Shown in pieces: positions 5,047-49,703 of a DNA stretch of 64,000 nt. Numbering within the stretch: position 1 is the stretch's first letter; each line of letters begins with the position of its first letter. The translations under genes and the position numbers were made by a program. The stretch comes from Verrucomicrobium sp. BvORR034 (GTDB lineage Bacteria > Verrucomicrobiota > Verrucomicrobiia > Verrucomicrobiales > Verrucomicrobiaceae). The notes beneath the pieces are model-generated. The model made no database searches. It was given only the letters and a program-made list of their open reading frames with translations, and had not been told where the DNA came from. The stretch is taken from positions 1 through 64,000 of the forward strand of contig NZ_BATQ01000064.1 of the NCBI RefSeq assembly GCF_000739635.1. Reading direction: 5' to 3'.

Positions 5047-7977
5047 ATGAAACGCTTCCTCGCTTCCTTGTTCAGCCTTGCCTGCGCCGCTCCGATTCTG
5101 GCGGCGGCGGGACCCTTGCGCGTGCTCTACTACGATGCCAGCGGCACCGAGCAATCGCAGTTGGGCCCGCTTCATTCCGCCATGGCCGAACTCGGACGGG
5201 ATGCAATCTACTTCGACTATGTGGCTGGCAAGGACCTGACGCCGGAACTGGCGGCTCGCTACCAGATTGCCATCGTATCTGGCTCGGGCGCTGACGTTAC
5301 CGCTGTGCCATCGAAGGGGCGCATCGATCTCAGCGGTGGGGAAACTCCCGTGCTTATTCGTGAGAAGGTGGTTGCAGTCGCCCGCGAGCTCGGGCTGGAG
5401 AAGGACTGGCAGGCCTTTCTGGCCCAGCGTGAGCCGGAGATCCGGGAGAAGAACGCGAATGTGGCCAACTACGAAAAGCGGCCCGAGCCGCTGACGTTTC
5501 AAAAGCCCTTCAACGTGAAGGGCAGCATGGAGCGCACCCAGGTGCCTGCCGATCTGAAGCTGCAACTCTTTGCGTCCGAGCCGGACATTCGCAAACCCAT
5601 CGCCATGGCCTGGGACGACCGCGGCCGCTGCTGGGTGGCAGAGACCAGCGACTATCCGCATGGGGTAAATCCTGAGGGACGAGGAAATGACACGATCCGC
5701 ATCTGCGAAGACACCGACGGGGACGGTCGCGCGGACAAATTCACGGTCTTTGCCGACAAGCTCAACATTCCCACTGCGATCGTGTTTGCCAATGGTGGCA
5801 TCATCGTCTCGCAGCCGCCGCGTTTCCTGTTCCTGAAGGACACCAATGGCGATGACAAGGCCGATGTTCGGGAGGAAATCCTCACCGGCTGGGGGATCGG
5901 CGACACACACGCCCAGGCCAGCAACCTGCACTATGGTTATGACAACTGGCTCTACGGTGCGGTGGGCTACTCGGCCTTCAAGGGCACCGTGGCGGGGAAG
6001 GCGATCGAGTTTACCCAGGGCACCTACCGCTTCAAGGCAGACGGCTCCGCGCTGGAGTTCCTGCACCAGTTCACAAACAACACGTGGGGGCACAGTTACA
6101 ACGCTGCGGGGGACCAGTTTGGCGGCACGGCCAATGGCGCGCCCCTCTTCTACGGAGGCATTCCTAGAACTGTGGTTCCCGAGGGTGTGCGGACGATGAC
6201 GGCCAAGAAGATCAACCTCGTGGAGAAGGCCCACACCATCACGCCGAACTTCCGCCAGGTGGATGTGTTTGGCGGCTACACCTCCGCGGCGGGTTCGAGT
6301 TTCCTCTATTCCAAGAGCCTGCCATCCCGCTTCCAGGGCTGTGCCATGGTGTGTGAGCCGACACTGAAGATCATCTCCCTGATGAAAGTGGTGCCTGAAG
6401 GCGCGGGCTTTGCGGCGAAGGACGCCTACAACCTTGTGGCCAGCACCGACGAGTGGATGTCGCCTGTCTTTGCCGAGGTGGGGCCAGATGGTGCGGTCTG
6501 GTTTGCCGACTGGCAGAACTTCATTATCCAGCACAATCCCACGCCCAGCCAGGAGCGCGGCGGCTACAAAGCCACCACCGGCCCTGGTGGGGCGCACGTG
6601 AATGACTTGCGCGATCATGAGCGCGGACGCATCTATCGCATCGTGGCGGCCGATGCCCCAGTTCGCAAACCGGCGCAGTATCGCGGGGCGAGCGCAGCGC
6701 ATCTCGTTGCCCTGCTGGATGACGATGTGCAGTACACCCGCTTGCACGCCCAGCAGCGCCTGGTGGAGGGCAAGGTGATCGATGCCGTGCCTGCACTAAA
6801 GCAGAAGGTGCTGGCCAATGATGGCGACATTGGGGCCATCCATGCTCTCTGGGCTCTCCAGGGACTGAGTCAGCTGGATGAATCCACCCATCGTGCTGCC
6901 CTCCTGGCCAAGGCTCCCGAACTGCGTCGCAACGCCATCCGCGCTCTCGGCGCCGATCTGAAAAGTCAGAGCCTGTATTTTGGCGCCGGGGTGGTGAGTG
7001 ATCCCGATCTGACCACCCGCCTGGCCGCACTGGTGAAGTTGGGCGAGTTTCCCACCACACCGGAGATCAAGACGCTGGTCGTTAGTCTGGCCTCGGATGC
7101 TGCAGTGAAGAGTGATGAATGGTTGCGAGAGATGAACCGGGCGCTGGAGAAGAAGCACGGGGTGAAGGCCTACAAGCTAGGGCCGAATCTGTTGCCGAAT
7201 CCAGGATTCGAGGTGCTGGCGACCAACGGTCTGCCCGAGGGGTGGGCGCGCCGTGACTACGGCTCCGGCCGCAATCCTGGCAATCAGGGCGCGGAGTGGA
7301 AGGTGGTGTCCGGCGAGGGCAACACTCACTCTGGTAGCAACGGCGTCCGTTGCGTCACTCGCGCGGATGCTGATACGAGCCTGTATGCGGATGTGCCAGT
7401 GAAGCCCAACACGGAGTACCGCCTGGCCGGATGGATCAAGACTCATGCCTTCAGAGGCAAGGCCAGCCTGAATGCCCATAGCACTCCGGTGGAGACGGAC
7501 AAGGTGCAGCGGAACTTCAACTGGAGCGAGGTGGAGGTGGTGTTTAACTCCAAGGATCGCACCCGTCTGAGCATCAACATCCTGCATGTGGCGAAGGGCG
7601 ATGCGATCTTTGACGATGTGAGCCTGTGTGAGGTGCTGCCTGGCGAGGCCGCCGGGGACGCTCTATTGACGGGTGATGTGAAGCGAGGAGCAAACATCTT
7701 CTGGACCCATCCTGTGGCGGCTTGTGTGAACTGTCACATGCTCGGCGGGAAGGGCAGCGCGGTGGGGCCGGCACTTGATGGCATCGCCAGCCACAAGGAC
7801 GAGGCCTACATCCAGCAGAGTCTCCTCGAACCCAATGCGAAGCTGGCCGAAAGTTACACCGCTACGCCGATCTCCCCGATGCCTCCCATGGGGTTGATCC
7901 TGAAGCCGCAGGAGCTGGCGGATGTGCTGGCGTTCATGTTAAGCCTGAAGGAGGGCGTGGCTGCCGCGCAGAAGTAG
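5047..7977 (+). CDS. Secreted PVC-type dehydrogenase / HEAT / cytochrome c protein
   Basis: 976 aa from the ATG at 5047; a GTG at 5032 is in frame, but the signal peptide (MKRFLASLFSLACAAPILAAA) fits the ATG. Order: a short ThuA-like fragment (about 25-80), the planctomycete/verrucomicrobial 'membrane-bound dehydrogenase' beta-propeller (about 165-550) with calcium-type loops DTDGDGRAD and DTNGDDKAD, a helical HEAT-like stretch (about 560-700), a carbohydrate-binding-like beta-sandwich (NLLPNPGFEV to DAIFDDVSL, about 715-860), and a C-terminal cytochrome c with CVNCH at 893-897 and candidate axial Met near 945-948. Such proteins are thought to oxidise sugars or related compounds in the periplasm. 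The substrate is unknown. Confidence 0.88.
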   Translation: MKRFLASLFSLACAAPILAAAGPLRVLYYDASGTEQSQLGPLHSAMAELGRDAIYFDYVAGKDLTPELAARYQIAIVSGSGADVTAVPSKGRIDLSGGETPVLIREKVVAVARELGLEKDWQAFLAQREPEIREKNANVANYEKRPEPLTFQKPFNVKGSMERTQVPADLKLQLFASEPDIRKPIAMAWDDRGRCWVAETSDYPHGVNPEGRGNDTIRICEDTDGDGRADKFTVFADKLNIPTAIVFANGGIIVSQPPRFLFLKDTNGDDKADVREEILTGWGIGDTHAQASNLHYGYDNWLYGAVGYSAFKGTVAGKAIEFTQGTYRFKADGSALEFLHQFTNNTWGHSYNAAGDQFGGTANGAPLFYGGIPRTVVPEGVRTMTAKKINLVEKAHTITPNFRQVDVFGGYTSAAGSSFLYSKSLPSRFQGCAMVCEPTLKIISLMKVVPEGAGFAAKDAYNLVASTDEWMSPVFAEVGPDGAVWFADWQNFIIQHNPTPSQERGGYKATTGPGGAHVNDLRDHERGRIYRIVAADAPVRKPAQYRGASAAHLVALLDDDVQYTRLHAQQRLVEGKVIDAVPALKQKVLANDGDIGAIHALWALQGLSQLDESTHRAALLAKAPELRRNAIRALGADLKSQSLYFGAGVVSDPDLTTRLAALVKLGEFPTTPEIKTLVVSLASDAAVKSDEWLREMNRALEKKHGVKAYKLGPNLLPNPGFEVLATNGLPEGWARRDYGSGRNPGNQGAEWKVVSGEGNTHSGSNGVRCVTRADADTSLYADVPVKPNTEYRLAGWIKTHAFRGKASLNAHSTPVETDKVQRNFNWSEVEVVFNSKDRTRLSINILHVAKGDAIFDDVSLCEVLPGEAAGDALLTGDVKRGANIFWTHPVAACVNCHMLGGKGSAVGPALDGIASHKDEAYIQQSLLEPNAKLAESYTATPISPMPPMGLILKPQELADVLAFMLSLKEGVAAAQK

Positions 7978-8378
7978 GAGAAGAGACAGAAGACTTGAAC
8001 TCCCGCACCCGCGGGAGCGAGGGGGAGGCTGGCAGTCGCGGCCTCTCGAATCATCCGTGGCGAGGTCCCGGGAGTAGTCCGACGGGCCCCGTCGGTTGGG
8101 GAACGGAGGAGTTGGAGGTTCGAGGAACCAAGGTGTGGGTACGGCTGACCGGTGATCGCGTGACCACCTCCAAAGAGAGGCTTCAGCAGTGCCTGCCAAG
8201 GAACCTTTGGGGCCGCTGCGAACCAGACCGCCGCGACTCCTTCGGAGTCGTTTCGCTACCTCACCTACCCAACGTAGACTCGCTGGAAGCTCGTCAACGT
8301 TGGGCTTTCTTCGTTTGTGTGAACAGCAAAAGTAGTCACGGGCTTCAGCCAGTTCAGTCACGCCATTGGGCCCCCGTT
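7978..8378. other. Convergent intergenic gap filled with hairpin repeats
   Basis: This 401-bp gap lies between the PVC haem gene (rightward) and tag (leftward). It contains copy 2 of the modular hairpin repeat and further small palindromes. An open frame on the minus strand runs through it and into tag, but its codons follow the repeat sequence, so I do not call it a gene. Confidence 0.6.
8070..8304. repeat. Modular hairpin repeat, copy 2
   Basis: Modules in order: GGGAGTAGTCC followed by the hairpin CCGACGG-GCC-CCGTCGG (to 8095); GACTCC-TTC-GGAGTC at 8235-8249; and the nested palindrome at 8268-8304 with arms CCCAACGT/ACGTTGGG and inner GCT-GGA-AGC. The first module matches 26269-26294 and the last two match copies near 3.7 and 26.4 kb. 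Confidence 0.8.
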
Positions 8379-8966
8379 TCAAACCTTGCGCTTTACCGTC
8401 TTCCGTACTTCGCGGAATCGCGGGCAGCTCACCAGATGATCGTTCACCATGCCCACGGCTTGCATAAAAGCGTAGCAAATGGTGGAGCCCACGAAGGTGA
8501 AGTCCTTCTTTTGAAGCGCCTTGCTCAAGCGATCACTCACCTCGGTCTTCGCTGGCACTTGGGAAGTTGCCTCGAACTCATTCTGCACCGGCTTGCCGCC
8601 GACGTGATCCCAGAGGAATTCCGAAAACGCATCCAGGCTCCCGTTGAAGTGCACCATAACGGCGCGGGCGTTGCGCACTACGGCGGCCACCTTGAGCTTG
8701 TTGCGCACGATGCCAGGATCCAGCAGGGCGTGGTCAATGTGCTTCTGAGTCCACTTGCTCAGCTTGGCAGGATCAAAGTTCTCAAAAACCCGTCGATAGC
8801 CCTCACGCTTGTGCAGCACGGTCCTCCAGCTCAGCCCGGCCTGGGCTCCTTCCAGGTTGATCATCTCAAACAGGTGATGACCATCCTTCGTCGGTACGCC
8901 CCATTCTTCATCGTGATAGGCCACATAGAGAGGATCATCAGCAGGGCACCAGGGACAGCGGGACAT
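8379..8966 (-). CDS. tag: DNA-3-methyladenine glycosylase I
   Basis: 195 aa, the typical Tag length. Tag excises 3-methyladenine from alkylated DNA at the start of base excision repair. The N-terminal signature is clear: RCPWC, then YHDEEWGVP, with Cys4 and His18 in the positions of the family zinc ligands. The other two ligands are in the C-terminal segment (VNDHLVSC). The middle contains the helix-hairpin-helix-like core with EGAQAGLSW and the conserved GSTICYAFMQAVG segment. A tandem heptamer repeat lies just upstream of its start. It appears monocistronic. Confidence 0.96.
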   Translation of the reverse strand: MSRCPWCPADDPLYVAYHDEEWGVPTKDGHHLFEMINLEGAQAGLSWRTVLHKREGYRRVFENFDPAKLSKWTQKHIDHALLDPGIVRNKLKVAAVVRNARAVMVHFNGSLDAFSEFLWDHVGGKPVQNEFEATSQVPAKTEVSDRLSKALQKKDFTFVGSTICYAFMQAVGMVNDHLVSCPRFREVRKTVKRKV

Positions 8967-11117: not shown

Positions 11118-11783
11118 TCATTCGTCGGTGCCCTCCTGGGGCTTCGAGCGGCGGATGAGATCGATGGTGCTGCGGGTGACGATGCAGGCGTCCGTCACGA
11201 TGTCGTAGCGCTCGTTGGCGAGCCACTCCTTCCGGACCATCCACGTGCCACCCACCGCGATCACGGGTTTGAAGCCCAGGTATTCGCCCATGGTTTCCCG
11301 GGTGACTCCGCCGGTGGGAAGGAAGCGCATGTTTGGGAACGGTCCATGCAGAGCTTTGATGACCGTGATGCCGCCATACGCGCTGCTGGGGAAGAACTTC
11401 ACGCACTCCAGCCCCAGCTTTACCGCCAGCATCACCTCTGTGGGCGTGCAGGCTCCGGGGATGATTGGCACGTTCTTGGACTGGCAGTGGCGGATGAGGC
11501 CTTCATCCATGCCGGGTGAAACGATGTACTTCGCCCCGGCGGCGATCGCTTCATCAGCCTGCTCAATGTTTAGAACAGTGCCTGCCCCCAGAAGGATGGA
11601 CTCTTTGAGGCTGGCCATGCGGCGCAACACCTCGAGAGCCACGGGCGTGCGCAGGGTGACCTCGGCACAGGGCAGACCGCCATCGATCAGCGCCTCCGCG
11701 AGGGGTTCAGAGTGCGAAACGTCTGAGAGGACGATCGTAGGGACAACAGCAAGCTTCTCAATTTGGGCGAGAACTTCGTGCAT
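11118..11783 (-). CDS. eda: 2-dehydro-3-deoxy-phosphogluconate (KDPG/KHG) aldolase
   Basis: 221 aa TIM-barrel aldolase. The catalytic glutamate sits in AEVTLRT (Glu41) and the Schiff-base lysine in CVKFFPSS (Lys126). GAGTV, SPGMD, PGACTPTE and the phosphate loop PTGGV are all recognisable. The enzyme cleaves KDPG to pyruvate and glyceraldehyde-3-phosphate in the Entner-Doudoroff or hexuronate pathways. It sits between moeB and the NagB-LmbE gene, all leftward; the 112-bp gap to the NagB-LmbE gene permits cotranscription. No edd or kdgK is in the window. Confidence 0.93.
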   Translation of the reverse strand: MHEVLAQIEKLAVVPTIVLSDVSHSEPLAEALIDGGLPCAEVTLRTPVALEVLRRMASLKESILLGAGTVLNIEQADEAIAAGAKYIVSPGMDEGLIRHCQSKNVPIIPGACTPTEVMLAVKLGLECVKFFPSSAYGGITVIKALHGPFPNMRFLPTGGVTRETMGEYLGFKPVIAVGGTWMVRKEWLANERYDIVTDACIVTRSTIDLIRRSKPQEGTDE

Positions 11784-11950
11784 GATTCAATCGGATGGTA
11801 GATTGCGCCGGACTTGCTTCAACTCGAAGAAAGTTTGGAGTAGATAAAAGTTACAAAATCATCAGATGAAGCGCACGAGCTTTTCCCAAGCACGGTATCG
11901 AATGGCCGTTTGAGCCCAGGTGTGACGCGAAGTTCGGGCGCGGTGATTGC

Positions 11951-11979
11951 AAAAAAGCCCGGAGGCATGGCTTCCGGGC
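11951..11979 (-). terminator. Rho-independent terminator after moeB
   Basis: On the minus strand GCCCGGA pairs with TCCGGGC around a 9-nt loop and is followed by six T residues. It lies 85 bp beyond the moeB stop codon and separates moeB transcription from the aldolase gene. Confidence 0.88.
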
Positions 11980-12063
11980 GGACGGGAGGGGAATCGATGG
12001 CAGACAGGTGAGGACAGGCTCGGGCAGCCAGGAACTGCTGCGGTAGCCGCGCACCTTCCTGCA

Positions 12064-13239
12064 TCAATACGTCGGCACAGTCGAATCAACCTCGTCGCTC
12101 CAGGCTAGGATGCCGCCGGTGACGTTCCACAGATCCTTGTAGCCCTCTTGCTGAAGCAGGCCCAGGGCCTTTGCGCTGCGCATGCCACTGCGGCAGTGGA
12201 TCACCACCTTCTGGTCCTGCGGCACCTCATCCAGACGTTCGGCCAGCTGACCCAGCGGGATGAGGGTGGAGCCGGGAATACGGGCGATCTCGAACTCGTA
12301 GGGTTCACGCACATCCAGCAGGAAGAAGGTCTCCCCGTTGGCCTGCATGGCCTGGAGATCCTTTACGGTGATAGCGGGGACGTCGGGAGTGGTGGGGGAG
12401 CTCATGGTGGGTTGGTTCTGAGAAGGCAGGCCGCAAAAGCCCTGATAGTCGATCGGTTCAGTGATGGTCGGTTGGTCGCCGCAGACCGGGCATTCGGGGT
12501 CGCGCCGGAGGTTAAAGGTGCGGAACTTCATGCTCAGCGTGTCCACATGCAACAGGCGGCCCACGAGGGGCTGGCCGATGCCGGTGATCAGTTTGATCGC
12601 CTCCGTCGCCTGCATAGTGCCGATCAGGCCTGGCAGCACACCAAGCACCCCTCCCTCTGCACAGCTGGGCACCAGCCCAGGAGCGGGTGGCTGTGGGGCC
12701 ATGCAACGGTAGCAGGGGCCGCCCAGGTGCGGGGCGAAGACGCTGCACTGCCCTTCAAACCGCAGGATGGAGCCATACACATTCGGTTTCTTCAGAAAGA
12801 CAGCCACGTCATTGCTGAGGTATCGGGTGGGGAAGTTGTCGGTGCCGTCGATGATCACATCGTAGTCCGCCGCCATCGCCATCGCGTTTTCGCCGGTGAA
12901 AACGGTCCGGTGGAGATCGATTTGCACATGGGGATTGATCTGGTGGAGCCGGTCCCTGGCAGACTCGAGCTTCGGCCGACCCACATCCGCGGTGCCGTGC
13001 AGGATCTGCCGTTGCAGGTTGGACACATCCACCACATCGGCATCTACCAGACCGATCCGCCCCAGCCCGGCCGCCGCCAGGTACATGGCAATGGGGGAGC
13101 CCAATCCGCCAGCGCCGATACAGAGCACCCCACCGGCCTTGAGCCGACGTTGGGCATCGATCCCGAACTCCGGGATGCTCAGATGCCGCGCATATCGGCG
13201 CAACTCATCGGGGGACAGGGCTGGAAGGGGATCAGACAT
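12064..13239 (-). CDS. moeB: MoeB/ThiF-type adenylyltransferase with C-terminal rhodanese domain
   Basis: 391 aa. Residues 1-250 are an E1-like ThiF/MoeB domain: RYARHLSIPEFG, the nucleotide loop GAGGLGSP, DADVVDVSNLQRQILH, the IDGTDNFPTRYL segment, and CYRC with later CPVC as zinc ligands. Residues about 285-390 are a rhodanese domain with active-site loop CRSGMRS. Such fusions adenylate and sulfurate the C-terminal Gly-Gly of MoaD, ThiS or other sulfur carriers for molybdopterin, thiamin or cysteine synthesis. No moaD/thiS partner is nearby, so the acceptor is open. A strong terminator follows. Confidence 0.93.
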   Translation of the reverse strand: MSDPLPALSPDELRRYARHLSIPEFGIDAQRRLKAGGVLCIGAGGLGSPIAMYLAAAGLGRIGLVDADVVDVSNLQRQILHGTADVGRPKLESARDRLHQINPHVQIDLHRTVFTGENAMAMAADYDVIIDGTDNFPTRYLSNDVAVFLKKPNVYGSILRFEGQCSVFAPHLGGPCYRCMAPQPPAPGLVPSCAEGGVLGVLPGLIGTMQATEAIKLITGIGQPLVGRLLHVDTLSMKFRTFNLRRDPECPVCGDQPTITEPIDYQGFCGLPSQNQPTMSSPTTPDVPAITVKDLQAMQANGETFFLLDVREPYEFEIARIPGSTLIPLGQLAERLDEVPQDQKVVIHCRSGMRSAKALGLLQQEGYKDLWNVTGGILAWSDEVDSTVPTY

Positions 13240-37230: not shown

Positions 37231-38340
37231 ATGCTCGCCACCGATCCCTCACCTGACACTCCGGCGGCACCTCTCTCCAAGAAGCGATGGTTGGGCTCTG
37301 GGGCGTTGGTTGCCGCTGGACTATTCGTGTTGGGGAGGCTGGCCGCTGAGCCTCTCAGAACGCTGGGGCACTATGATAGCCGTGCAATGGAGGCCTTTGC
37401 GGCCGTGGAGCACTACGGATTGCGCAAGAAGCCGGTGGATCCTCAGGTGGCTTTCTTTGGCAGCAGCCAGACTTTTTGGGGGTTGGTGCCGGAGGTGATC
37501 GGTCGCGCCTCCGGGCACGATCCGGACGAACTGCGGGTCCTTGGAGTGGAAGCGGGCACGCCGTTTGACATGTGGAACCTGATCCGGCGCAACCCCGAGT
37601 ACTTTGACAACCTGAAACTGGCGGTGGTGGAGGTGAATCCCGTGATGATGCAGACAGGGAAAGAAGGGGATGCTCGCTTGCAGCACTCCATCAGCCAGCA
37701 CGCGACGCTGGAGGAGCGCAATCTGCTGCATCACCGGCATGAGCGGCTCAAGCAGCAGGCAGAGTGGCTGCTGCCACTGACCTCTGCGAGGCACTCATTG
37801 CGCTCGGTGTTTCTCGCACTGGCGGATCCAGAGGAAGGGGCGGAACTTTATCCTTTTCCAGAAGGGCGCATTCACCCCGCTGCCGACTGGTACATGCACA
37901 ATGCCGGTGCCGTCACGAAGCGCTCGATGGTGCCAGCGGATGTAGCCGCCCGGCGGCTGGTGGGATACAAGGGGTGGAAGGCGTCTGCCTTGCAGGACCT
38001 GTGCCTGAAGAAGGTGCTGGCCTGGATGGAGGAGCACGAGATCCCGGTGCTTATTCACCAGTTCCCGCTGCATCCGGAGGTGGTGGATCTCATCCACAAC
38101 GACACCCATTTTCATCACTGCTATACCCAGTACTCCGCTTATGTGGATAGCCTGCGTCCGAAAGCGGCTGGCATGGTGCGGCTCTTGCATCCTGACGAGT
38201 GCGGCGCGGGGATGTCGGGCATGGCGGACCGCATGCACCTGAATGAAAGCGGTGCCAGCTACTACTCCCTTCATCTGGGCGAGAACATCCGCACTTTGGT
38301 GGACCCAGTGGCTGCGGAAAAGGCGCGGGACGATCTCTGA
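37231..38340 (+). CDS. Membrane-anchored SGNH-like protein 1 of acyl-transfer cluster
   Basis: 369 aa. One N-terminal signal anchor (about 20-40, LGSGALVAAGLFVLGRLAA). The rest is periplasmic and resembles DltD/AlgJ-type SGNH proteins: FFGSSQTFWG puts a candidate nucleophile at Ser78 or Ser79, and MADRMHLNESG gives a DxxH pair (Asp333, His336). In between, TPFDMWNLIRRNP and VVEVNPVMMQ are shared with its neighbour. MBOAT proteins often need such a partner to pass the acyl group to a polymer. Acceptor unknown. Confidence 0.8.
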   Translation: MLATDPSPDTPAAPLSKKRWLGSGALVAAGLFVLGRLAAEPLRTLGHYDSRAMEAFAAVEHYGLRKKPVDPQVAFFGSSQTFWGLVPEVIGRASGHDPDELRVLGVEAGTPFDMWNLIRRNPEYFDNLKLAVVEVNPVMMQTGKEGDARLQHSISQHATLEERNLLHHRHERLKQQAEWLLPLTSARHSLRSVFLALADPEEGAELYPFPEGRIHPAADWYMHNAGAVTKRSMVPADVAARRLVGYKGWKASALQDLCLKKVLAWMEEHEIPVLIHQFPLHPEVVDLIHNDTHFHHCYTQYSAYVDSLRPKAAGMVRLLHPDECGAGMSGMADRMHLNESGASYYSLHLGENIRTLVDPVAAEKARDDL

Positions 38341-38413
38341 ATGAATCCGGCCCGGCTTGAGGCTGGATTTTTCACTTGGGTGTGTTATGCGTTTCCGGCA
38401 TTCTACCCTTCTC

Positions 38414-39499
38414 ATGGCAGACTCTCTACCCACCTCACCCAAGCGCGGCATTTCGCAGTGGTTTGGATCAGGGGCGCTGGTGGCTCTGGCCGTCCTTCTT
38501 GCCGGAAGATTCGCGGCGGAAAAATTGCGGGGACTGCCCCACTTTGATGAGCGGGGTGGGATGGATGCCTACGGGGCGGTGGAAACTTACTACCTGAAGA
38601 AGAATCCCAACCCCGTGGAGGTCGCCTGTTTTGGCACGAGCCAGAGCGTGTTTGGCATCTCGGAGAGTGAAGTGGCCACCTGTCTGGGAGAAAAGGCGGA
38701 ACGTGTGCGCAATCTCGGAACCCCCGGGGGGACGCCGTTCGACATGTGGAGTCTCGTGCGCCGGAATCCAGACAGCTTCAAGGACTTGCATCTGGCGGTG
38801 GTGGAGATCAACCCGTTCGTCCTGCAAAAGGGGCTGGAAGGCGATGATCGCATGGTGCTGAGCTTGAGCCAGAAGGCGACTCTGCATGAGCGGCTCACCA
38901 TTGCCAGCGCCCACATGCGGAGGCGGCAGTTGATGGACCTCGTGCTGCCGCTCTACTCGGCCCGTCGGTCTCTTCGGACGGTCTTTTTGAATGTGCTTGA
39001 TCCCTGTCCGGGCAATGCACTCTGCCCCTGTCCGGAGCAGAAGGCTCTTCCGGCTGCCGGTTGGGTGGTGAATCACGCCCATCGTTACAACCGCGATCGT
39101 CAGAAGGTCTCCCCGGAGCTGGTCGCCCGCCGCTTCTTTGGCAACTGGCGGGTGTCAGAGCTTCAGGACGAGTCGTTGCGCAATCTTCTGGCCTGGTTTG
39201 ATGAGCACAAGGTGCCGGTGGTGTTGCATCAGATGCCCGTGCATCCCGAGGTGGTGAAACTCGTGAAGTCAGATCCGCGCTACAGCAAGGGGTTCCAGCA
39301 GTTCTCCGACTATGTGGCTTCCCTCAAGCCAACTCCTGCGGCAGTGATCCAGATTCTGGACACGGATGAGTGTGGGGCGGGCGAGGGGGACCTCGCCGAC
39401 CGCACCCACCTGAACCAGTTGGGGGCGTGCATCTACTCGCGATACCTGGCTGAGAAGATCAAGGCCGTGCCCGGACTGGCCGTGACTCAGGGCGGCTAG
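38414..39499 (+). CDS. Membrane-anchored SGNH-like protein 2 (paralogue of its neighbour)
   Basis: 361 aa from the ATG at 38414, which aligns with the start of the preceding paralogue; earlier in-frame starts at 38357 (TTG) and 38387 exist. Anchor FGSGALVALAVLLAGRFAAEKL, then CFGTSQSVFG (Ser76) and LADRTHLNQLG (Asp329, His332). The shared segments GTPFDMWSLVRRNP and VVEINPFVLQ show that it arose by tandem duplication; sequences have clearly diverged. The first block has T-S instead of S-S, which points to the second position as nucleophile. Confidence 0.8.
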   Translation: MADSLPTSPKRGISQWFGSGALVALAVLLAGRFAAEKLRGLPHFDERGGMDAYGAVETYYLKKNPNPVEVACFGTSQSVFGISESEVATCLGEKAERVRNLGTPGGTPFDMWSLVRRNPDSFKDLHLAVVEINPFVLQKGLEGDDRMVLSLSQKATLHERLTIASAHMRRRQLMDLVLPLYSARRSLRTVFLNVLDPCPGNALCPCPEQKALPAAGWVVNHAHRYNRDRQKVSPELVARRFFGNWRVSELQDESLRNLLAWFDEHKVPVVLHQMPVHPEVVKLVKSDPRYSKGFQQFSDYVASLKPTPAAVIQILDTDECGAGEGDLADRTHLNQLGACIYSRYLAEKIKAVPGLAVTQGG

Positions 39500-41397: not shown

Positions 41398-43239
41398 ATG
41401 AGCATCCCCCTGAATCGTCCTTGGCCAGCTTTACTGCTGTCGGTTGCTGTTGCCGCATCCGCGGTCCTCGGAGTCGACCCCGTTGTTGCCCAGTCAGCTT
41501 CATCTTCCTCTGCCCAACAGGAGCTTCCCGACGCCGGGCGGATCGTCTTTCTGGGAGACAGCATCACCGCCGACGGAAAGTACGTCGAGTATGTGGAGAC
41601 TGTACTGCTGGCCAAGACCTCCAAGCGGTATGACATCATCGATCTGGGGCTCTCCAGCGAGACCGTGTCCGGACTTTCTGAGGATGGGCACGCAGGCGGG
41701 AAGTTTCCGCGTCCAGACTTGCACGAGCGGCTGACCCGGGCGCTGGACAGGACCAAACCGCAACTCGTGGTGGCCTGCTACGGGATGAACGACGGGATCT
41801 ACTACCCGTTCAGTGACGAGCGGTTTGGGAAATATGAGTCGGGCATGCGCGATTTGCGCAGGGAGGCGGCTGCACGTGGCATCTCGGTCACTCATCTGAC
41901 GCCGCCGGTGTTTGATCCGGTACCGATCAAGGACAAGGTCCTGCCCGCAGGCCTGGACGCCTACCCAAGGCCGTTCGTGGGGTACAATGAGGTGTTGGGG
42001 AAGTATGGAGCCTGGCTCCAGCGGATGGCTGTCAGCGAGAAATGGGCGGTGGTGGACATCCATGGGGCGATGACCAAGGCTCTGGATGAGAAGCGCAAGA
42101 CAGATGCCGCATTTGCTTTCGCCCGGGACGGAGTTCACCCGAACGCGGAAGGGCACTGGGTGATGGCTCAGCCGCTGCTGAACGCCTGGGGTGTGAAGCA
42201 CGATTACCAAGTGGAGGACCTGACGGCCCCTCAAGGCAGGCTGGCCGTGCTCTACAAGGCGGTTGCCGCCCGCCAACGTCAGATGAAGGCGGCCTGGATG
42301 AGCGAGGTTGGGCACAAGCGCCCTGGCGTGGCCCCAGGGTTGCCCCTGCCAGAAGCGCAAGCCAAGGCCGCCGCACTGACGGCCGAGATCCAGACCCTGC
42401 TGGCGGTGGGGCCGTCCGCCTGGGTGGGCGTGGCCAAGTCGGAGGCGCCAGCGCCAGCTGCGGCGTCCGCATCAGCGCCGTTTCCTGGCAAGAAGAGCGT
42501 CTGGAAGGGATATGATCGGTATGAGTTCGACGTGGAAGGGCACGTGGCGAGTGTGGTGGTGCCCAAAAACGTCGCGAAGGGGAAACCCTGGGTCTGGCAT
42601 GGGGAGTTCTTTGGCCACAAGCCAGATCCGGATGTGGCCCTCCTCGGCAAAGGTTTCCACATCGTGTACCTGAAAGTGAATGACATGCTGGGCAGTCCGA
42701 CGGCGGTGCAGTACTGGAACGACCTCTACAAGGTCCTGACAGAGAAGTATGGCCTGGGGCCGAAGCCCGCCCTCGTGGGGCTGAGCAGAGGCGGCCTCTA
42801 CTGCTACAACTGGGCCATCGCCAACCCGGACAAGGTCTCCTGCATCTATGCGGATGCGCCGGTCTGCGACTTCAAGAGCTGGCCGGGCGGGAAAGGGAAG
42901 GGGAAAGGAGACCCCAAGAACTGGCAGCTCGTGCTGAAGCTGTGGGGCTTCAAGGATGAGGCCGAGGCGCTGGCCTACAAGGGGAATCCCGTGGACAACC
43001 TCCAACCCCTGGCGCAGCGCAAGGTGCCGCTGCTTCACGTTTATGGCGATGCGGACGATGTGGTGCCATGGGATGAGAACACGGGTGTGATCGCCACCCG
43101 CTATCGCGGTCTCGGCGGGCCCATTGAGTTGATCGAGAAAAAGGGCGTGGGTCACCATCCGCACGGCCTGCAGGACAGCACTCCCATTGTGGAGTTCATT
43201 CTCAAGCACGCCAGCGAACCCGCGAAGCCTGCATCTTAA
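41398..43239 (+). CDS. Secreted bifunctional SGNH hydrolase plus alpha/beta-hydrolase, copy 1
   Basis: 613 aa from ATG 41398, with signal peptide (ALLLSVAVAASAVLG). Residues about 45-265 are an SGNH/GDSL hydrolase: FLGDSIT (Ser55), ACYGMNDG block, DGVHPN (Asp244, His247). Residues about 350-610 are an alpha/beta hydrolase: nucleophile elbow GLSRGG (Ser463), acid near GDADDVVPW and His in GVGHHPHG (about 586). A helical connector with a short Ala/Pro linker joins them. Both triads look complete. I infer an esterase for polysaccharide substituents. A paralogue follows directly. Confidence 0.85.
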   Translation: MSIPLNRPWPALLLSVAVAASAVLGVDPVVAQSASSSSAQQELPDAGRIVFLGDSITADGKYVEYVETVLLAKTSKRYDIIDLGLSSETVSGLSEDGHAGGKFPRPDLHERLTRALDRTKPQLVVACYGMNDGIYYPFSDERFGKYESGMRDLRREAAARGISVTHLTPPVFDPVPIKDKVLPAGLDAYPRPFVGYNEVLGKYGAWLQRMAVSEKWAVVDIHGAMTKALDEKRKTDAAFAFARDGVHPNAEGHWVMAQPLLNAWGVKHDYQVEDLTAPQGRLAVLYKAVAARQRQMKAAWMSEVGHKRPGVAPGLPLPEAQAKAAALTAEIQTLLAVGPSAWVGVAKSEAPAPAAASASAPFPGKKSVWKGYDRYEFDVEGHVASVVVPKNVAKGKPWVWHGEFFGHKPDPDVALLGKGFHIVYLKVNDMLGSPTAVQYWNDLYKVLTEKYGLGPKPALVGLSRGGLYCYNWAIANPDKVSCIYADAPVCDFKSWPGGKGKGKGDPKNWQLVLKLWGFKDEAEALAYKGNPVDNLQPLAQRKVPLLHVYGDADDVVPWDENTGVIATRYRGLGGPIELIEKKGVGHHPHGLQDSTPIVEFILKHASEPAKPAS

Positions 43240-43403
43240 GGGGTACTGCGGGGCGGGAACCCGCACAGATTGTCAAAAATCGCTTGCGAGGGGCGTTTTC
43301 AGAGGTCGGTTTGCAGTCCCTGCCACGAGGCAGGGCGGCGCGTCTCCGGCGTGTCCGGCGAACTCCTGCCCGTCCTGTCTTACCACCTCTGACTTCTCTC
43401 GCG

Positions 43404-45650
43404 ATGAATCTCTTTTTGAAGCATGCCTGGCCGACCTCCGTGTTGTCTGCCGTGATTGCCGTCTGCGCAGGGCTGGGGGCCAGCAATGTCTCCGCGCAAA
43501 ATTCCGCGTCCGGCTACTCTGTGGGGAAGGTGGGTGAACTCCCCAAGGCGGAACGCATCCTCTTCCTCGGGGACAGCATCACGGCAGATGGCAAGTACAT
43601 CGAGTACGTGGAGACCATCGTGCTGGCCACGAGCGACAAGCGGTATGACATGATCAACCTCGGTCTGGCCAGCGAGACCGTTTCCGGGCTGACGGAGAAT
43701 GGGCATGCGGACGGGAAGTTCCCACGCCCCAACCTGCATGAACGTCTCGCCCGGGCCCTGGAGAAGACCAAACCCCAGCTCATCGTGGCGTGCTATGGCA
43801 TGAACGATGGCATCTACCACCCGTATCGGGATGACCGCTTCAACAAGTTCGTGGCTGGCGTGCAGGTGGTCCGGGACCGCGCCTGGGACCGCAAGATCGC
43901 CATCACCCATCTCACCCCACCCGTATTCGACCCGCTGCCGATCAAGGACAAGGTCCTGCCTGCAGGGCGAAACTCCTATCCCGAGCCCTTCGAGCGCTAC
44001 AACTCAGTGCTCGACCGCTACACCCTGTGGATGAACGGGAAGGGCCGCCGCACCGGGTGGCGCGTGGTGGATGTGCACACGGCCATGGCGGACTATCTGG
44101 AGGAGAAGCGCAAGGCAGATCCAGAATTCACCCTGGCCAAGGACGGGGTGCACCCCAATGAGGAGGGGCACTGGGTCATCGCCCAACCGCTGCTGGCCTC
44201 ATGGGGAGTGAAGCATGATTACAAGCTGGAGGACCTGACCACGCCCGAGGGACGGCTGGGCAAGCTCTACGCGGTGGTCGCAGAGCGCCAGCACCTCATG
44301 AAGGCCGCCTGGCTGAGCGAGGTGGGACACAAGCGGCCCGGGGTAAAAGCGGGTCTCCCTCTGGAGGAAGCCCAGCAGAAAGCCGCGGCCTTGACCACGG
44401 AGATCGAGGCGATTTTGAAGGGTGGCCCTACGGTGCTGGCCGCCAGTCCTACGCCGGAGGCACCTGTGCCTTCCGCAGTGCCGATTTCTGAACCAGGTGC
44501 CAGCGTTGGCGTTGGCGCTCCCATGGCGGTCGCTCCTGTAGCCTCAACGGCAGAGGTCGCGCCGACACCCGCCCCAGCCCCAGTAGCGATGGCTCCGGCC
44601 CCGACGCCTGCACCCGCTCCTGAGGTGGAGCCCCAGGCGGCCCCGATGGTGGTCGCAGCTTCTGCTCCCCAACCGGAGGCCACTCCCGCTCCCGAACCTG
44701 CGACGGCTCCGACTCCGCAGGGTTCACCCTCTTTGCCCCTGCCTCCCGCGCCGATGGTGGCAGCCGCCACCTTGGTCAAGGCGGAACCGGTTCCCTTGTC
44801 CGCTCCCGTGCCCCCTCCGGCTTTGAAGAATCCCGGTGTGCCTCTGCTGCCGGGGAACAGTGTGGATTCTGCCGCAGAACCCGAAGGTCCCGCGCTTTTC
44901 CCAGGGCGCCGCAGCAAATGGCAGGGCTTTGACCGCTACGACTTCGATGTGAACGGCCCGCTGGTAACGGTGGTGGCTCCCAAGACGGCGGCCAAGGGCA
45001 AACCCTGGGTGTGGCATGGTGAGTTCTTCGGTCACAAGCCGGATCCCGATGTGGCCCTGCTGGAAAAAGGTTTCCATATCGCCTACATGCGCGTGAGCGA
45101 CATGCTCGGCAGTCCTCCTGCGGTGAAGCACTGGAATGCTTTTTATGCCGTGCTCACCAAGCAGTATGGGTTCAACAAAAAGCCCGCCCTGGTCGGTCTG
45201 AGCCGTGGTGGTCTGTATTGCTACAACTGGGCCATTGCCAACCCAGACAAGGTGGCCTGCATCTATGGCGATGCGCCAGTGTGTGACTTCAAGAGCTGGC
45301 CCGGTGGCAAGGGCAAGGGCAAGGGCGACGCGAAAAACTGGCAGCTTGTGATGGATCTCTGGGGGTTCAAGGACGAAGCCGAGGCGCTCGCGTACAAGGG
45401 CAATCCGGTGGACAACCTGGAAGGTCTGGCCAAGCGCAAGGTGGCGATCATCCACGTGTTTGGCGATGCCGATGACATCGTGCCCTGGCAGGAGAACACC
45501 GGCCTCGTGGCGGAGCGTTATCGCAAGCTGGGTGCCCCGATTGAATTGATCGCGAAAGCGGGTGTGGGGCATCACCCCCATGGGTTGCAGGACAGCACGC
45601 CCATCGTGGAGTTCATCCTCAAGCATGCGGCATCTCCTTCGCGCCGGTAG
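43404..45650 (+). CDS. Secreted bifunctional SGNH hydrolase plus alpha/beta-hydrolase, copy 2, with long Pro/Ala linker
   Basis: 748 aa from ATG 43404. Same architecture as copy 1: SGNH domain with FLGDSIT (Ser58), CYGMNDGIY and DGVHPNEEGH; alpha/beta hydrolase with GLSRGG (Ser600), DADDIVPW and GVGHHPHG. The two domains are very similar to those of copy 1, but here a roughly 140-residue Pro/Ala/Val-rich linker (about 345-490, with APAP and TPAP runs) separates them. This linker is the main length difference. The pair arose by tandem duplication; linker growth is typical of secreted multidomain enzymes. Confidence 0.85.
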   Translation: MNLFLKHAWPTSVLSAVIAVCAGLGASNVSAQNSASGYSVGKVGELPKAERILFLGDSITADGKYIEYVETIVLATSDKRYDMINLGLASETVSGLTENGHADGKFPRPNLHERLARALEKTKPQLIVACYGMNDGIYHPYRDDRFNKFVAGVQVVRDRAWDRKIAITHLTPPVFDPLPIKDKVLPAGRNSYPEPFERYNSVLDRYTLWMNGKGRRTGWRVVDVHTAMADYLEEKRKADPEFTLAKDGVHPNEEGHWVIAQPLLASWGVKHDYKLEDLTTPEGRLGKLYAVVAERQHLMKAAWLSEVGHKRPGVKAGLPLEEAQQKAAALTTEIEAILKGGPTVLAASPTPEAPVPSAVPISEPGASVGVGAPMAVAPVASTAEVAPTPAPAPVAMAPAPTPAPAPEVEPQAAPMVVAASAPQPEATPAPEPATAPTPQGSPSLPLPPAPMVAAATLVKAEPVPLSAPVPPPALKNPGVPLLPGNSVDSAAEPEGPALFPGRRSKWQGFDRYDFDVNGPLVTVVAPKTAAKGKPWVWHGEFFGHKPDPDVALLEKGFHIAYMRVSDMLGSPPAVKHWNAFYAVLTKQYGFNKKPALVGLSRGGLYCYNWAIANPDKVACIYGDAPVCDFKSWPGGKGKGKGDAKNWQLVMDLWGFKDEAEALAYKGNPVDNLEGLAKRKVAIIHVFGDADDIVPWQENTGLVAERYRKLGAPIELIAKAGVGHHPHGLQDSTPIVEFILKHAASPSRR

Positions 45651-47016: not shown

Positions 47017-49587
47017 CTACTTCTTCGACTTCAAATACTCCACAAGATCCCGGATCTGCACATCGCTCAGGCGGGCCACCATGCCCTCGGGCATGATGGA
47101 GACGGGGAGGTGCTCACGTTTGGTGATTTCCTCAATCTTCACATCGAATGGGCGGCCATCCAGACCGACGTAGGTGTGCACATTGCCGCGCTCCATGAGC
47201 TGGAAGGCGGTGCGCGCCTTTCCATCACTGGTGGTCAGGTTGTAGGACTCGTATTGGGGTGGGACGTTGCGGCTGGGCTGAAGCAGGGATTCAAGGATAT
47301 AATCCGGTGATTTGGCGGCACCGACGGTGGAGAGGTTGGGGCCGGCGGGGCTGCCCACGCCGTCGATCCGATGGCACAGGACGCAACCGCCAAGCTTCGG
47401 GTGGAAGAACACCTCGCGTCCCTGCGCAAGATCGGGCTTGTCGGGTACCGCAGCCAGGTATTTCTCCCACGCGGGGATGTCGTTGAATGGGGGACGGCCG
47501 GTGGGTGGAGGCGGCAGCGGGGCGTCACTCATGGCGAGTTCCTTGGCCCGCTTCATGATCGGGTCGGAGTCCATGTTAAGAATACCCAGGGCTTTCTTGT
47601 CCTCCTCATTCAAGGTCATGTGCATCAAGGCTGCGGATCTGGCCTCGGGAGACTTCTTGGGATCAAACGCGACCTGTCGGAGCAGACTCTCCCGATTGTT
47701 GTCGCGGAGGGAACCGATGATCTGGGTGACAAACTCCTGGAAGGCACCGTCGCCCTCATTCAGAAGGGGCGCGAGATCGGCAGCCAGCAGTTGATGTTCA
47801 CGATCCGGCAATATTTCCAGGGCGGCACGCTTGAGGCGGTATGGCGTCTGGGCATCTGAAAGGCGGGCTTTCAAGCGCTTGATGAGATCGGCCTCCTGAA
47901 TTTGCTCGGACTCAAGGCGCCCCAATGCGGTGATGCCAGCGTAGAACAGCGCCGGAGTGAGTTCAGGATCGGTCAGCAGCTTTTCGACATCTGCCTTGTA
48001 GTCCGCCATCCGATTGTCGGAAACCCACTTCAGGGCGAGGAGGCGGACGGTGGGATCGGTATCGGTGAGGAATTCCTTGGGCAGGAGGAGTGGCTCCGCT
48101 CCAGTGCGTTTGGCATCACGGCTCAGCGCGAGAAGCAGCCCCTGCCGCTGGTGGGGATAGGGGAGTTTGTTGTCCTTCAGAATCCAGAGGAGATCCTGCT
48201 CCCGGGCCATCCGGGTGATGGCGGCGGAGAAGGTCCACGGATTGGGATCATTGAGCCATTCTGCCGCCTCCAGTGCGGTGACCTTTTCCTTCTTCAGGAT
48301 CTTGTCGAGTTGCTCCTGCTTCCAGGCAACGCCGCTTTTCACCGCGAGCGGTCCCTTCAAGTCAGTCGCTTTTTTGGCAGAGATTCGCCAGATGCGCCCT
48401 TTGCCATGGAGTTCGTAGTCTCGCTTCACCCAGTCACTCACATAGAGGGAGCCATCGGGTGCCGTGGCAAAGGCGACCGGGCGGAAGTCGTTGCCACCAT
48501 GAACCAGGACTTTTTTCTCCGCAGGGAGGTAGGCATGGGCGGTGTCGGGCAGGAAGTATGCCTCGATGGTGTGATCCACCCAGGAGGCCACGAGCAGGCT
48601 GCCGTGCCATGGGGCGGGGAGGCCCCGGAACCCCTTGGTCGCGCCGGGGGCATAGAAGGTGATGTCACACGGGGCCTCGCCGGTGGCGGCGAGCATGGGC
48701 AGCGTCCCGGGCAGTTCTCCGTTCCAACTGATGAAGGGATGCAGACCGCTGCGGCCGTAGCGGAACTGGTAGCCGTAGTCGCCACCCTCGATGACATGGT
48801 GCAAACGGCACGGTGGCCGGGAATCAGGATCATTGTCTGTGGCGAAGACATCGCCCCAGGAATCGACGCAGACTCCAAAGGGGTTCCAAAAGCCGGTGGC
48901 GATGCGCCGCAGCTTGCCGCCCTCGGTGGTGGCGTGAAAGATGTTCCCGCCTTCCCCTTGATCACTGTGTTTGCTCCCGTCTGAACCTGCCAGGGTGTAC
49001 GCGGCACCCAGATTCTCCCCCAGTCCGAAATAGAGGCCGCCGTTCCCGTCAAAAGCCAGTCCACCGAGACCGTTGTGGGGGTAAATTCCTTCTGTCTCGA
49101 GAGAGACGAGCTTGCGGTCCACCTGCTCAGCCTTGCCATCCCCGTCCGCATCCCGCAGTCGGAGGATCTCATTGCGTGTGGCCACATAAACGGAGCCATC
49201 CGGGGCCGTGGCCAGATCCATGGTCATGCTGGTGCCTTCGAAGAACACATTGGCCTTCTCAGCTTTGCCGTCCTTGTCGGCGTCTTCCATCCAGAGAATG
49301 CGGTCGTGCTCCGGTCCCTGGTAGCCGGGAGGACGGAAGTGGGTGTTGCTTTCGATGACGAGCAGCTTGCCGTCCCGGGTGAAAGTCAGCCCAATAGGTG
49401 TACGCAGGAGGGGATCGCTGGCAAAGAGGTCCACCTTGAGGGCGGGGTCCGCGACGGTGGGAGCCTCGATTTTTTCTTTCGAGGTGCCGCTGCCTCCGTT
49501 CTGGCCCCAGGCGGGGGCCATCAGCAGCAGGACGAGTCCAGCCATGAATGTCAGGGCAGGGATTGGCGGGAGGGAGACACCGTTCAT
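47017..49587 (-). CDS. Secreted PVC-type dehydrogenase / HEAT / cytochrome c protein 2
   Basis: 856 aa from ATG 49587; an in-frame ATG exists at 49635 but the signal peptide (LTFMAGLVLLLMAPAWGQ) fits the later one. Order: beta-propeller with calcium-type loops DADKDGKAE and DADGDGKAE and a GVCVDSWGD-type blade, HEAT-like helices (about 440-690), then cytochrome c with CVLCH near 735-739 and candidate Met near 832. It differs from the first copy (5.0 kb) by lacking the ThuA-like fragment and the carbohydrate-binding module. Periplasmic substrate oxidation is the family expectation; substrate unknown. Confidence 0.87.
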   Translation of the reverse strand: MNGVSLPPIPALTFMAGLVLLLMAPAWGQNGGSGTSKEKIEAPTVADPALKVDLFASDPLLRTPIGLTFTRDGKLLVIESNTHFRPPGYQGPEHDRILWMEDADKDGKAEKANVFFEGTSMTMDLATAPDGSVYVATRNEILRLRDADGDGKAEQVDRKLVSLETEGIYPHNGLGGLAFDGNGGLYFGLGENLGAAYTLAGSDGSKHSDQGEGGNIFHATTEGGKLRRIATGFWNPFGVCVDSWGDVFATDNDPDSRPPCRLHHVIEGGDYGYQFRYGRSGLHPFISWNGELPGTLPMLAATGEAPCDITFYAPGATKGFRGLPAPWHGSLLVASWVDHTIEAYFLPDTAHAYLPAEKKVLVHGGNDFRPVAFATAPDGSLYVSDWVKRDYELHGKGRIWRISAKKATDLKGPLAVKSGVAWKQEQLDKILKKEKVTALEAAEWLNDPNPWTFSAAITRMAREQDLLWILKDNKLPYPHQRQGLLLALSRDAKRTGAEPLLLPKEFLTDTDPTVRLLALKWVSDNRMADYKADVEKLLTDPELTPALFYAGITALGRLESEQIQEADLIKRLKARLSDAQTPYRLKRAALEILPDREHQLLAADLAPLLNEGDGAFQEFVTQIIGSLRDNNRESLLRQVAFDPKKSPEARSAALMHMTLNEEDKKALGILNMDSDPIMKRAKELAMSDAPLPPPPTGRPPFNDIPAWEKYLAAVPDKPDLAQGREVFFHPKLGGCVLCHRIDGVGSPAGPNLSTVGAAKSPDYILESLLQPSRNVPPQYESYNLTTSDGKARTAFQLMERGNVHTYVGLDGRPFDVKIEEITKREHLPVSIMPEGMVARLSDVQIRDLVEYLKSKK

Positions 49588-49703
49588 CAACGCCAGTTTA
49601 CGCAACGGTTGACAAGGAAACAATCCGGGAGTCATGATCTTTGCTCGATGGATCGAAAGGCCGGAGTCGTTCGGTTCGTCCTGTATGCACCGCCTGCCGC
49701 AGC

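Follow-up and report, generated by a model that had tools for sequence, protein, structure and literature searches.

Tandem genes for secreted SGNH–alpha/beta-hydrolase fusion proteins, putative two-esterase enzymes, in Verrucomicrobium sp. BvORR034

The window analysed here is a 64,000-nucleotide stretch of contig NZ_BATQ01000064.1 from the genome of Verrucomicrobium sp. BvORR034. Two paralogous genes were found side by side on its forward (+) strand, at the coordinates given in a first-pass annotation of the same DNA. Copy 1 (41398..43239, ATG at 41398 and stop at 43239) encodes 613 amino acids and copy 2 (43404..45650, ATG at 43404 and stop at 45650) encodes 748. The two products share one layout: behind a signal peptide-like N terminus come an SGNH domain extended by helices, a Pro/Ala linker and, at the C terminus, an alpha/beta-hydrolase domain. 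The putative signal peptide of copy 1 (41398..41493), with the hydrophobic core LLSVAVAASAVL, reaches a Kyte-Doolittle window maximum of 2.47 at residue 13, and residues 7-38 were disordered in the full-length AF2 model. In copy 1 the SGNH domain and its C-terminal helical extension (residues 41-340, 41518..42417) are supported by invariant residues and a structural match. The inter-domain linker (residues 333-361, 42394..42480) spans 29 amino acids, with pLDDT below 50 at residues 344-358, and the alpha/beta-hydrolase domain (residues 362-613, 42481..43236) was assigned from alignments, AF2 and a fold match. In copy 2, the SGNH domain and helical extension lie at residues 44-335 (43533..44408; nucleophile S58) and the alpha/beta-hydrolase domain at residues 499-748 (44898..45647), with the expanded Pro/Ala-rich linker of 163 amino acids between them (residues 336-498, 44409..44897). 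Compared domain by domain, as the first-pass annotation had proposed, the copies were 66.6% identical in the SGNH domain and 77.9% in the alpha/beta domain, and 69.5% overall. The first-pass reading of two unlike serine-hydrolase folds within a single secreted chain, present as a side-by-side duplicate, is supported.

The SGNH domains of both copies carry the motifs GDSIT and DGVHPN and were matched by Pfam Lipase_GDSL_2 (PF13472) at 64.7 bits in copy 1 (residues 51-254) and 54.6 bits in copy 2, with a cut-off of 32.9. Residues S55, N131, D244 and H247 of copy 1 were invariant across 54 aligned homologues; the block II oxyanion Gly was not strictly kept at its canonical place (GLSSET/GLASET). 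The best structural match to the model of copy 1 residues 39-344 was BT4096 (7br2), with a Z score of 25.1 over 277 residues, an rmsd of 3.2 A and 20% identity. Both the SGNH core and the helical extension that follows it aligned with 7br2, whereas the BT4096 chain, at 442-450 amino acids, has no alpha/beta domain. Since this fold relative, a GDSL/SGNH hydrolase of Bacteroides thetaiotaomicron, was shown to deacetylate diltiazem (PMC8808336), removal of O-acetyl groups would be the most likely activity of the SGNH domain.

The alpha/beta domains of both copies carry the motifs GLSRGG, GDADD and GHHPHG. In copy 1 these supply the nucleophile S463, the acid D553 and the histidines H586/H587/H589, and the Ser, Asp and His were invariant (54 and 52 aligned sequences). 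Both catalytic sets are thus complete and conserved, as first annotated, and the invariant residues contradict the possibility, also raised then, that the alpha/beta domain is a non-catalytic module. The AF2 model of this domain had a pLDDT of 94.1 and a pTM of 0.91, and in it the GLSRGG Ser, GDAD Asp and GHHPHG His follow strands 106-110, 193-198 and 224-229 in the expected order. As modelled, the domain fits the alpha/beta-hydrolase fold serine hydrolases, with a G-x-S-x-G elbow, an Asp and a His. The full-length model of copy 1 (pLDDT 87.3, pTM 0.61) indicates two confident domains whose mutual orientation is uncertain. In a structure search with the model the fold was S9/SFGH/acetylxylan-esterase-like (Z about 20-21.7), its relatives including S9 enzymes, S-formylglutathione hydrolases, Ag85, the gut carbohydrate esterase 6xyc and BTAxe1 (7dwc), an acetylxylan esterase. 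The module is covered by no dedicated Pfam or NCBIfam family, and a sequence search of the PDB with its profile returned only weak matches to the C-terminal half, the best being LC-Est1C (E 1.4e-4).

The tandem pair is genus-specific: three species share it, with a similarly long copy 2 linker, whose approximate length is kept in G387 and G395. Both copies are under purifying selection (dN/dS 0.06-0.08). The pair derives from a single duplication in an ancestor common to the genus as sampled, the copies having been kept separately since. Copy 2 acquired a long, disordered Pro/Ala tether. This linker includes 43 Pro and 38 Ala among its 163 residues; the first-pass annotation was right that it is much longer, and its figure of 140 additional residues is replaced by a measured excess of about 134 (163 versus 29 amino acids). 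Relative to BvORR106, dN/dS in copy 2 was 0.129 for the linker, 0.036 for the SGNH domain and 0.015 for the alpha/beta domain, the most constrained part. A clean or strong tandem repeat was sought in the copy 2 linker and not found, which leaves an origin by tandem repetition unsupported.

The best 80 matching loci from a scan of public genomes were taken as a sample. The fused architecture was present in 79 of these, from Verrucomicrobiota, Planctomycetota and Armatimonadota, and the family extends to Akkermansia; the fusion is therefore wider than the host genus and, with both domains folding at high confidence, not a chance feature. In this group the SGNH-alpha/beta pairing is both old and widespread. 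The alpha/beta (AB) module is also joined to SGNH modules unrelated to the type in the window, and its arrangements include sulfatase-SGNH-AB (L070), AB-sulfatase-3-keto-disaccharide hydrolase (L117), AB-GH95 (L017), AB-SGNH with a weak CE2_N-like tail (L035), SGNH-SGNH-AB (L100) and SGNH-AB-SGNH (L114 and P0003, the latter being the one Bacteroidota record). In three loci (L045, L056 and L061) a sulfatase ORF starts directly past the stop of the fused gene. Six further loci (L072, L075, L076, L080, L082 and L099) were not counted as sulfatase loci, because what the L070 "sulfatase" query hits there by blast is the fused ORF itself, and Pfam found no sulfatase in L072 or L099. DUF1501/PSCyt genes lie near the fusion in 15-17 of the 80 loci, neighbourhood counts that have no matched control. 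Sulfatases are, besides, common in PVC genomes, and both points weigh against the carbohydrate-esterase reading given next.

Taken together, each gene probably encodes a secreted multicatalytic carbohydrate esterase, in which an SGNH deacetylase and a second glycan esterase act in cis and non-processively. The SGNH domain would remove O-acetyl groups by an acyl-enzyme mechanism through S55/N131/D244/H247, and the S9-like alpha/beta domain would most likely use S463, D553 and His to cut a second ester; both esters would sit on one complex polysaccharide, which may be sulfated. Removal of the esters would open the polymer to glycoside hydrolases and sulfatases. The glycan target and the synergy in cis are inferences. 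We infer, in keeping with the first-pass annotation, that one polymer loses two kinds of ester, since sulfatase, GH95 and 3-keto-disaccharide-hydrolase domains and other SGNH esterases recur as fusion partners or neighbours of the alpha/beta module. The "processive" removal proposed there was not borne out: no sign of processivity was seen, and the precedent, BoCE6-CE1 of B. ovatus, shows intramolecular synergy (PMC7110780). The two domains would instead cooperate through tethering, and the longer linker of copy 2 may, as the first-pass annotation suggested, alter the reach between them.

The polymer might alternatively be one made by the bacterium itself, in an O-acylated envelope or exopolysaccharide undergoing remodelling or turnover, rather than a food polysaccharide. 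The setting of the genes is in line with this: their neighbours encode transglutaminase-like, ABC transporter ATPase and DUF7133/cytochrome-like proteins, which do not form a polysaccharide-degradation cluster, a point that also counts against the main reading; an SGNH-like paralogue pair lies immediately upstream of the tandem, and the remaining two species of the genus show the same surrounding gene order. Homologues elsewhere, however, have sulfatases as fusion partners or neighbours and GH95 as a fusion partner, and an SGNH homologue in Paenibacillus adjoins a sugar ABC transporter and regulators of the AraC type, which fits catabolism. A role on the cell's own material is considered unlikely. 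Less likely again is an S9-like alpha/beta domain with peptidase or amidase activity (or that of an acyl-peptide hydrolase), which would give a deacetylase-peptidase chain acting, for example, on glycoproteins or peptidoglycan-like material. The domain could conceivably be a peptidase, or an esterase of non-glycan substrates, because the best Pfam match is Peptidase_S9 (20.9 bits at residues 456-586 of copy 1 and 23.2 bits in copy 2; cut-off 22.6) and many of the top fold matches are S9 exopeptidases. In S9 exopeptidases the active site is gated by a beta-propeller, but no such domain was found upstream of the alpha/beta domain, where the N-terminal part of the protein is instead the SGNH domain; the esterases SFGH, Ag85 and BTAxe1 match about equally by Z score, and the fusion partners are glycan-active enzymes. 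That one domain alone is catalytic in nature, the other being a binding or structural module, has a general precedent in hydrolase domains that were inactivated and reused, but is very improbable given catalytic sets invariant over three phyla and the strong constraint on the copy 2 alpha/beta domain.

Among the major degraders of complex polysaccharides, which are often sulfated, are the Verrucomicrobia and Planctomycetes, but many of their esterases lack assignment. It is conceivable, though more doubtful than not, that the alpha/beta module is an unrecognised carbohydrate-esterase family, and that its partnerships mark an undescribed doubly esterified polysaccharide motif needing two esterases in cis; the scope of this reading is the SGNH, sulfatase, GH95 and 3-keto-disaccharide hydrolase partners across Verrucomicrobiota, Planctomycetota, Armatimonadota and Bacteroidota. 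Conservation over three phyla, Akkermansia included, the glycan-active fusions and a natural short-/long-linker pair in one genome make this a tractable system for a new carbohydrate-esterase family. The pair is also suited to asking whether tether length controls the synergy of two esterases.

No description of an SGNH plus alpha/beta architecture of this exact kind in Verrucomicrobiota was found among open-access papers. BTAxe1 and 6xyc/6tkx are carbohydrate esterases with the same alpha/beta fold (Z about 19.9), but are only about 16-17% identical and were matched as lone alpha/beta chains, unfused to this SGNH type. P0003 of Phocaeicola massiliensis (OY726026.1, 709 amino acids) has an alpha/beta domain of the same family, 49% identical and joined to SGNH modules; it differs in having three catalytic domains and SGNH modules unlike those of the window. 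A gut sialate 9-O-acetylesterase (EstA/PvSAE) was dropped as a functional anchor because the published description of PvSAE is of a homodimer with a single SGNH fold and P0003 had no PvSAE match in the PDB at E <= 0.001. NanS of Tannerella forsythia, compared by description only, likewise joins two catalytic modules in one esterase chain, with differing regiospecificity for O7 and O9, but its substrate is sialic acid (Albers et al. 2021, Glycobiology, as described in PMC8319020 and PMC13043746). The first-pass annotation had also raised the prospect that the architecture was already characterised, and this holds for the plan but not for the domains. FjCE6-CE1 (Fjoh_3878) and BoCE6-CE1 (BACOVA_03435) are Bacteroidetes multicatalytic carbohydrate esterases with acetyl and feruloyl activities (PMC7110780). 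Like the window proteins, they combine a signal peptide, an N-terminal SGNH-fold esterase and a C-terminal alpha/beta esterase in one chain, BoCE6-CE1 with a 76-amino acid insert between the domains. By Pfam, however, the domains in the window fall outside CE6 and CE1: the SGNH domain is Lipase_GDSL_2 and not CE6-type, with no SASA match up to E = 1, and the alpha/beta domain scores 16.7 and 14.3 bits against a cut-off of 22 for the CE1-type Esterase model (PF00756). The CE6-CE1 proteins are, moreover, known from Bacteroidetes, whereas the type in the window occurs in Verrucomicrobiota, Planctomycetota and Armatimonadota. The fusion is best read as a variant without family assignment within the known class of two-esterase proteins.

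Two open reading frames, each starting from ATG, were found in tandem on the forward strand at 41398-43239 (copy 1, 613 amino acids) and 43404-45650 (copy 2, 748 amino acids), where the first-pass annotation had placed them. They are the only complete SGNH plus alpha/beta-hydrolase proteins found in this genome, the remaining matches to copy 1 covering just parts of its SGNH half. Pfam Lipase_GDSL_2 matched the N-terminal part (64.7 bits in copy 1 and 54.6 in copy 2, cut-off 32.9); the C-terminal part matched Peptidase_S9 around its threshold (20.9 and 23.2 bits, cut-off 22.6) and no family in NCBIfam. The copies are more alike in the alpha/beta domain (77.9% identity) than in the SGNH domain (66.6%).

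Two complete catalytic sets had been proposed for each protein, and an alignment of 54 fused homologues corroborated this: S55, N131, D244 and H247 of the SGNH domain and S463, D553, H586, H587 and H589 of the alpha/beta domain are invariant. An alignment of the alpha/beta domain alone (52 sequences) agreed for its catalytic residues, and the AlphaFold2 model of this domain (pLDDT 94.1, pTM 0.91) places its Ser, Asp and His after the expected strands. The model of full copy 1 has a pTM of 0.61 despite a pLDDT of 87.3, with low pLDDT at 344-358, the pattern to be expected when a flexible tether joins two well-folded domains. The closest fold to the SGNH domain with its helical extension (model residues 39-344) is BT4096 of Bacteroides thetaiotaomicron (PDB 7br2; Z 25.1, 277 residues, 3.2 A), which, according to a review, deacetylates diltiazem (PMC8808336). 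The alpha/beta domain matches, at Z about 20-21.7, S9 catalytic domains, S-formylglutathione hydrolases, antigen 85 and two carbohydrate esterases, the acetylxylan-active BTAxe1 (7dwc) and a gut enzyme (6xyc); with scores this close, the fold cannot tell a peptidase from an esterase.

When one genome per species was scanned, 79 of the best 80 loci, which are not a census, carried both domains in a single reading frame. Their records are labeled Verrucomicrobiota (many Verrucomicrobiaceae/Prosthecobacter, also Akkermansia muciniphila CSUN-56), Planctomycetota and Armatimonadota. Across the phylum, 211 of 387 genomes matched the protein at least in part, often as single-domain genes, and all 59 sampled genomes of the window's taxonomic family matched. 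A Phocaeicola massiliensis record encodes an SGNH-AB-SGNH protein, AB being the alpha/beta module, 49% identical to ours in that module. This protein (709 amino acids, locus L142, 9284-11413) has an N-terminal SGNH domain with no close relative in the PDB. Housekeeping genes (IMPDH, PPIases, MutL) surround its gene, a setting that suggests a chromosomal origin for the "plasmid" record.

The AB module also joins glycan-active partners, as sulfatase-SGNH-AB (L070), AB-sulfatase-3-keto-disaccharide hydrolase (L117), AB-GH95 (L017) and AB-SGNH with a weak CE2_N-like tail (L035); SGNH-SGNH-AB (L100) and SGNH-AB-SGNH (L114) occur, and in L018 the two domains are separate, adjoining genes. The L117 protein (5773-8859, Planctomycetaceae, 1029 amino acids) combines three chemistries in a single chain. 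In L045, L056 and L061 the fused gene is followed directly by the start of a sulfatase frame. Of the 80 loci, 17 have DUF1501 genes near the fusion and 15 have planctomycete-cytochrome (PSCyt) genes there. Sulfatases are common in these genomes and the neighborhood counts have no matched control, so the argument is carried by the domain fusions; this modularity, read from sequence, points to glycans. A standalone SGNH homologue in Paenibacillus adjoins AraC-type regulators and a sugar ABC transporter. The genes beside the tandem in the window (transglutaminase-like, ABC ATPase, DUF7133) give no clue to the polymer or the second ester.

Several nearby genes were also noted. The DUF7133 gene (47017-49635, reverse strand, 872 amino acids, with HEAT-like and cytochrome c-like matches) adjoins the ABC ATPase. 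The transglutaminase-like gene is unbroken in the window and in the congener G395. In a second congener, G387, it is split (L138, about 11580-12870) by an insertion of ~1.2 kb that resembles an insertion sequence carrying a transposase and has GCTTACGCATGAA-like ends. Just upstream of copy 1 in the window lies a second paralogue tandem (37231-38340 and 38357-39499, ~45% identical to each other) with what looks like a membrane anchor at the N terminus, GSSQ and D-x-x-HLN motifs reminiscent of SGNH/AlgX-type proteins and no match in Pfam or NCBIfam; the two could form an O-acyltransferase-like pair.

Both congeners carry the tandem of SGNH plus alpha/beta fusions in the same gene order. Copies 1 and copies 2 form fully supported sister clades next to single-copy relatives, a tree that makes the duplication, judged from these sequences, a single genus-specific event. 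Copy 1 has a linker of 29 residues and copy 2 one of 163 (43 Pro, 38 Ala); the reported expansion is real, with an excess of ~134 residues rather than 140. The copy 2 linker is not cleanly a tandem repeat and is of similar length in both congeners. Between the window and Verrucomicrobium sp. BvORR106, copy 1 has a dN/dS of 0.082 and copy 2 one of 0.064; within copy 2 the ratio is 0.015 for the alpha/beta domain and 0.129 for the linker. All are approximate because synonymous divergence is high (dS 0.8-0.9). The linker retains its length and flanking segments while its sequence drifts, a pattern that fits a flexible tether.

The SGNH half is most likely an O-acetylesterase and the alpha/beta half most likely cuts a second ester of the same polymer, with tethering expected to yield synergy. 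Nothing observed supports the "processive" removal proposed in the first-pass annotation. No paper on this family was found in a search of open-access literature. Multicatalytic esterases are a known kind, since characterized fusions exist: FjCE6-CE1 and BoCE6-CE1 from Bacteroidetes xylan loci pair an acetyl esterase with a feruloyl esterase, and in the B. ovatus enzyme the fused domains, separated by a 76-residue insert, are synergistic (PMC7110780); further fusions, of the types CE1-CE1 and CE6-CE1-CE1, have been described (PMC8040265). NanS of Tannerella forsythia is reported to combine two catalytic modules in a single chain, with different regiospecificity (O7 and O9 of sialic acid; Albers et al. 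2021, cited in PMC8319020 and PMC13043746). Unlike CE6-CE1, copies 1 and 2 fall short of the Pfam models for CE6 (SASA) and CE1 (Esterase; 16.7 and 14.3 bits, cut-off 22), but they share with FjCE6-CE1 and BoCE6-CE1 an N-terminal SGNH fold and a C-terminal alpha/beta domain in one secreted chain.
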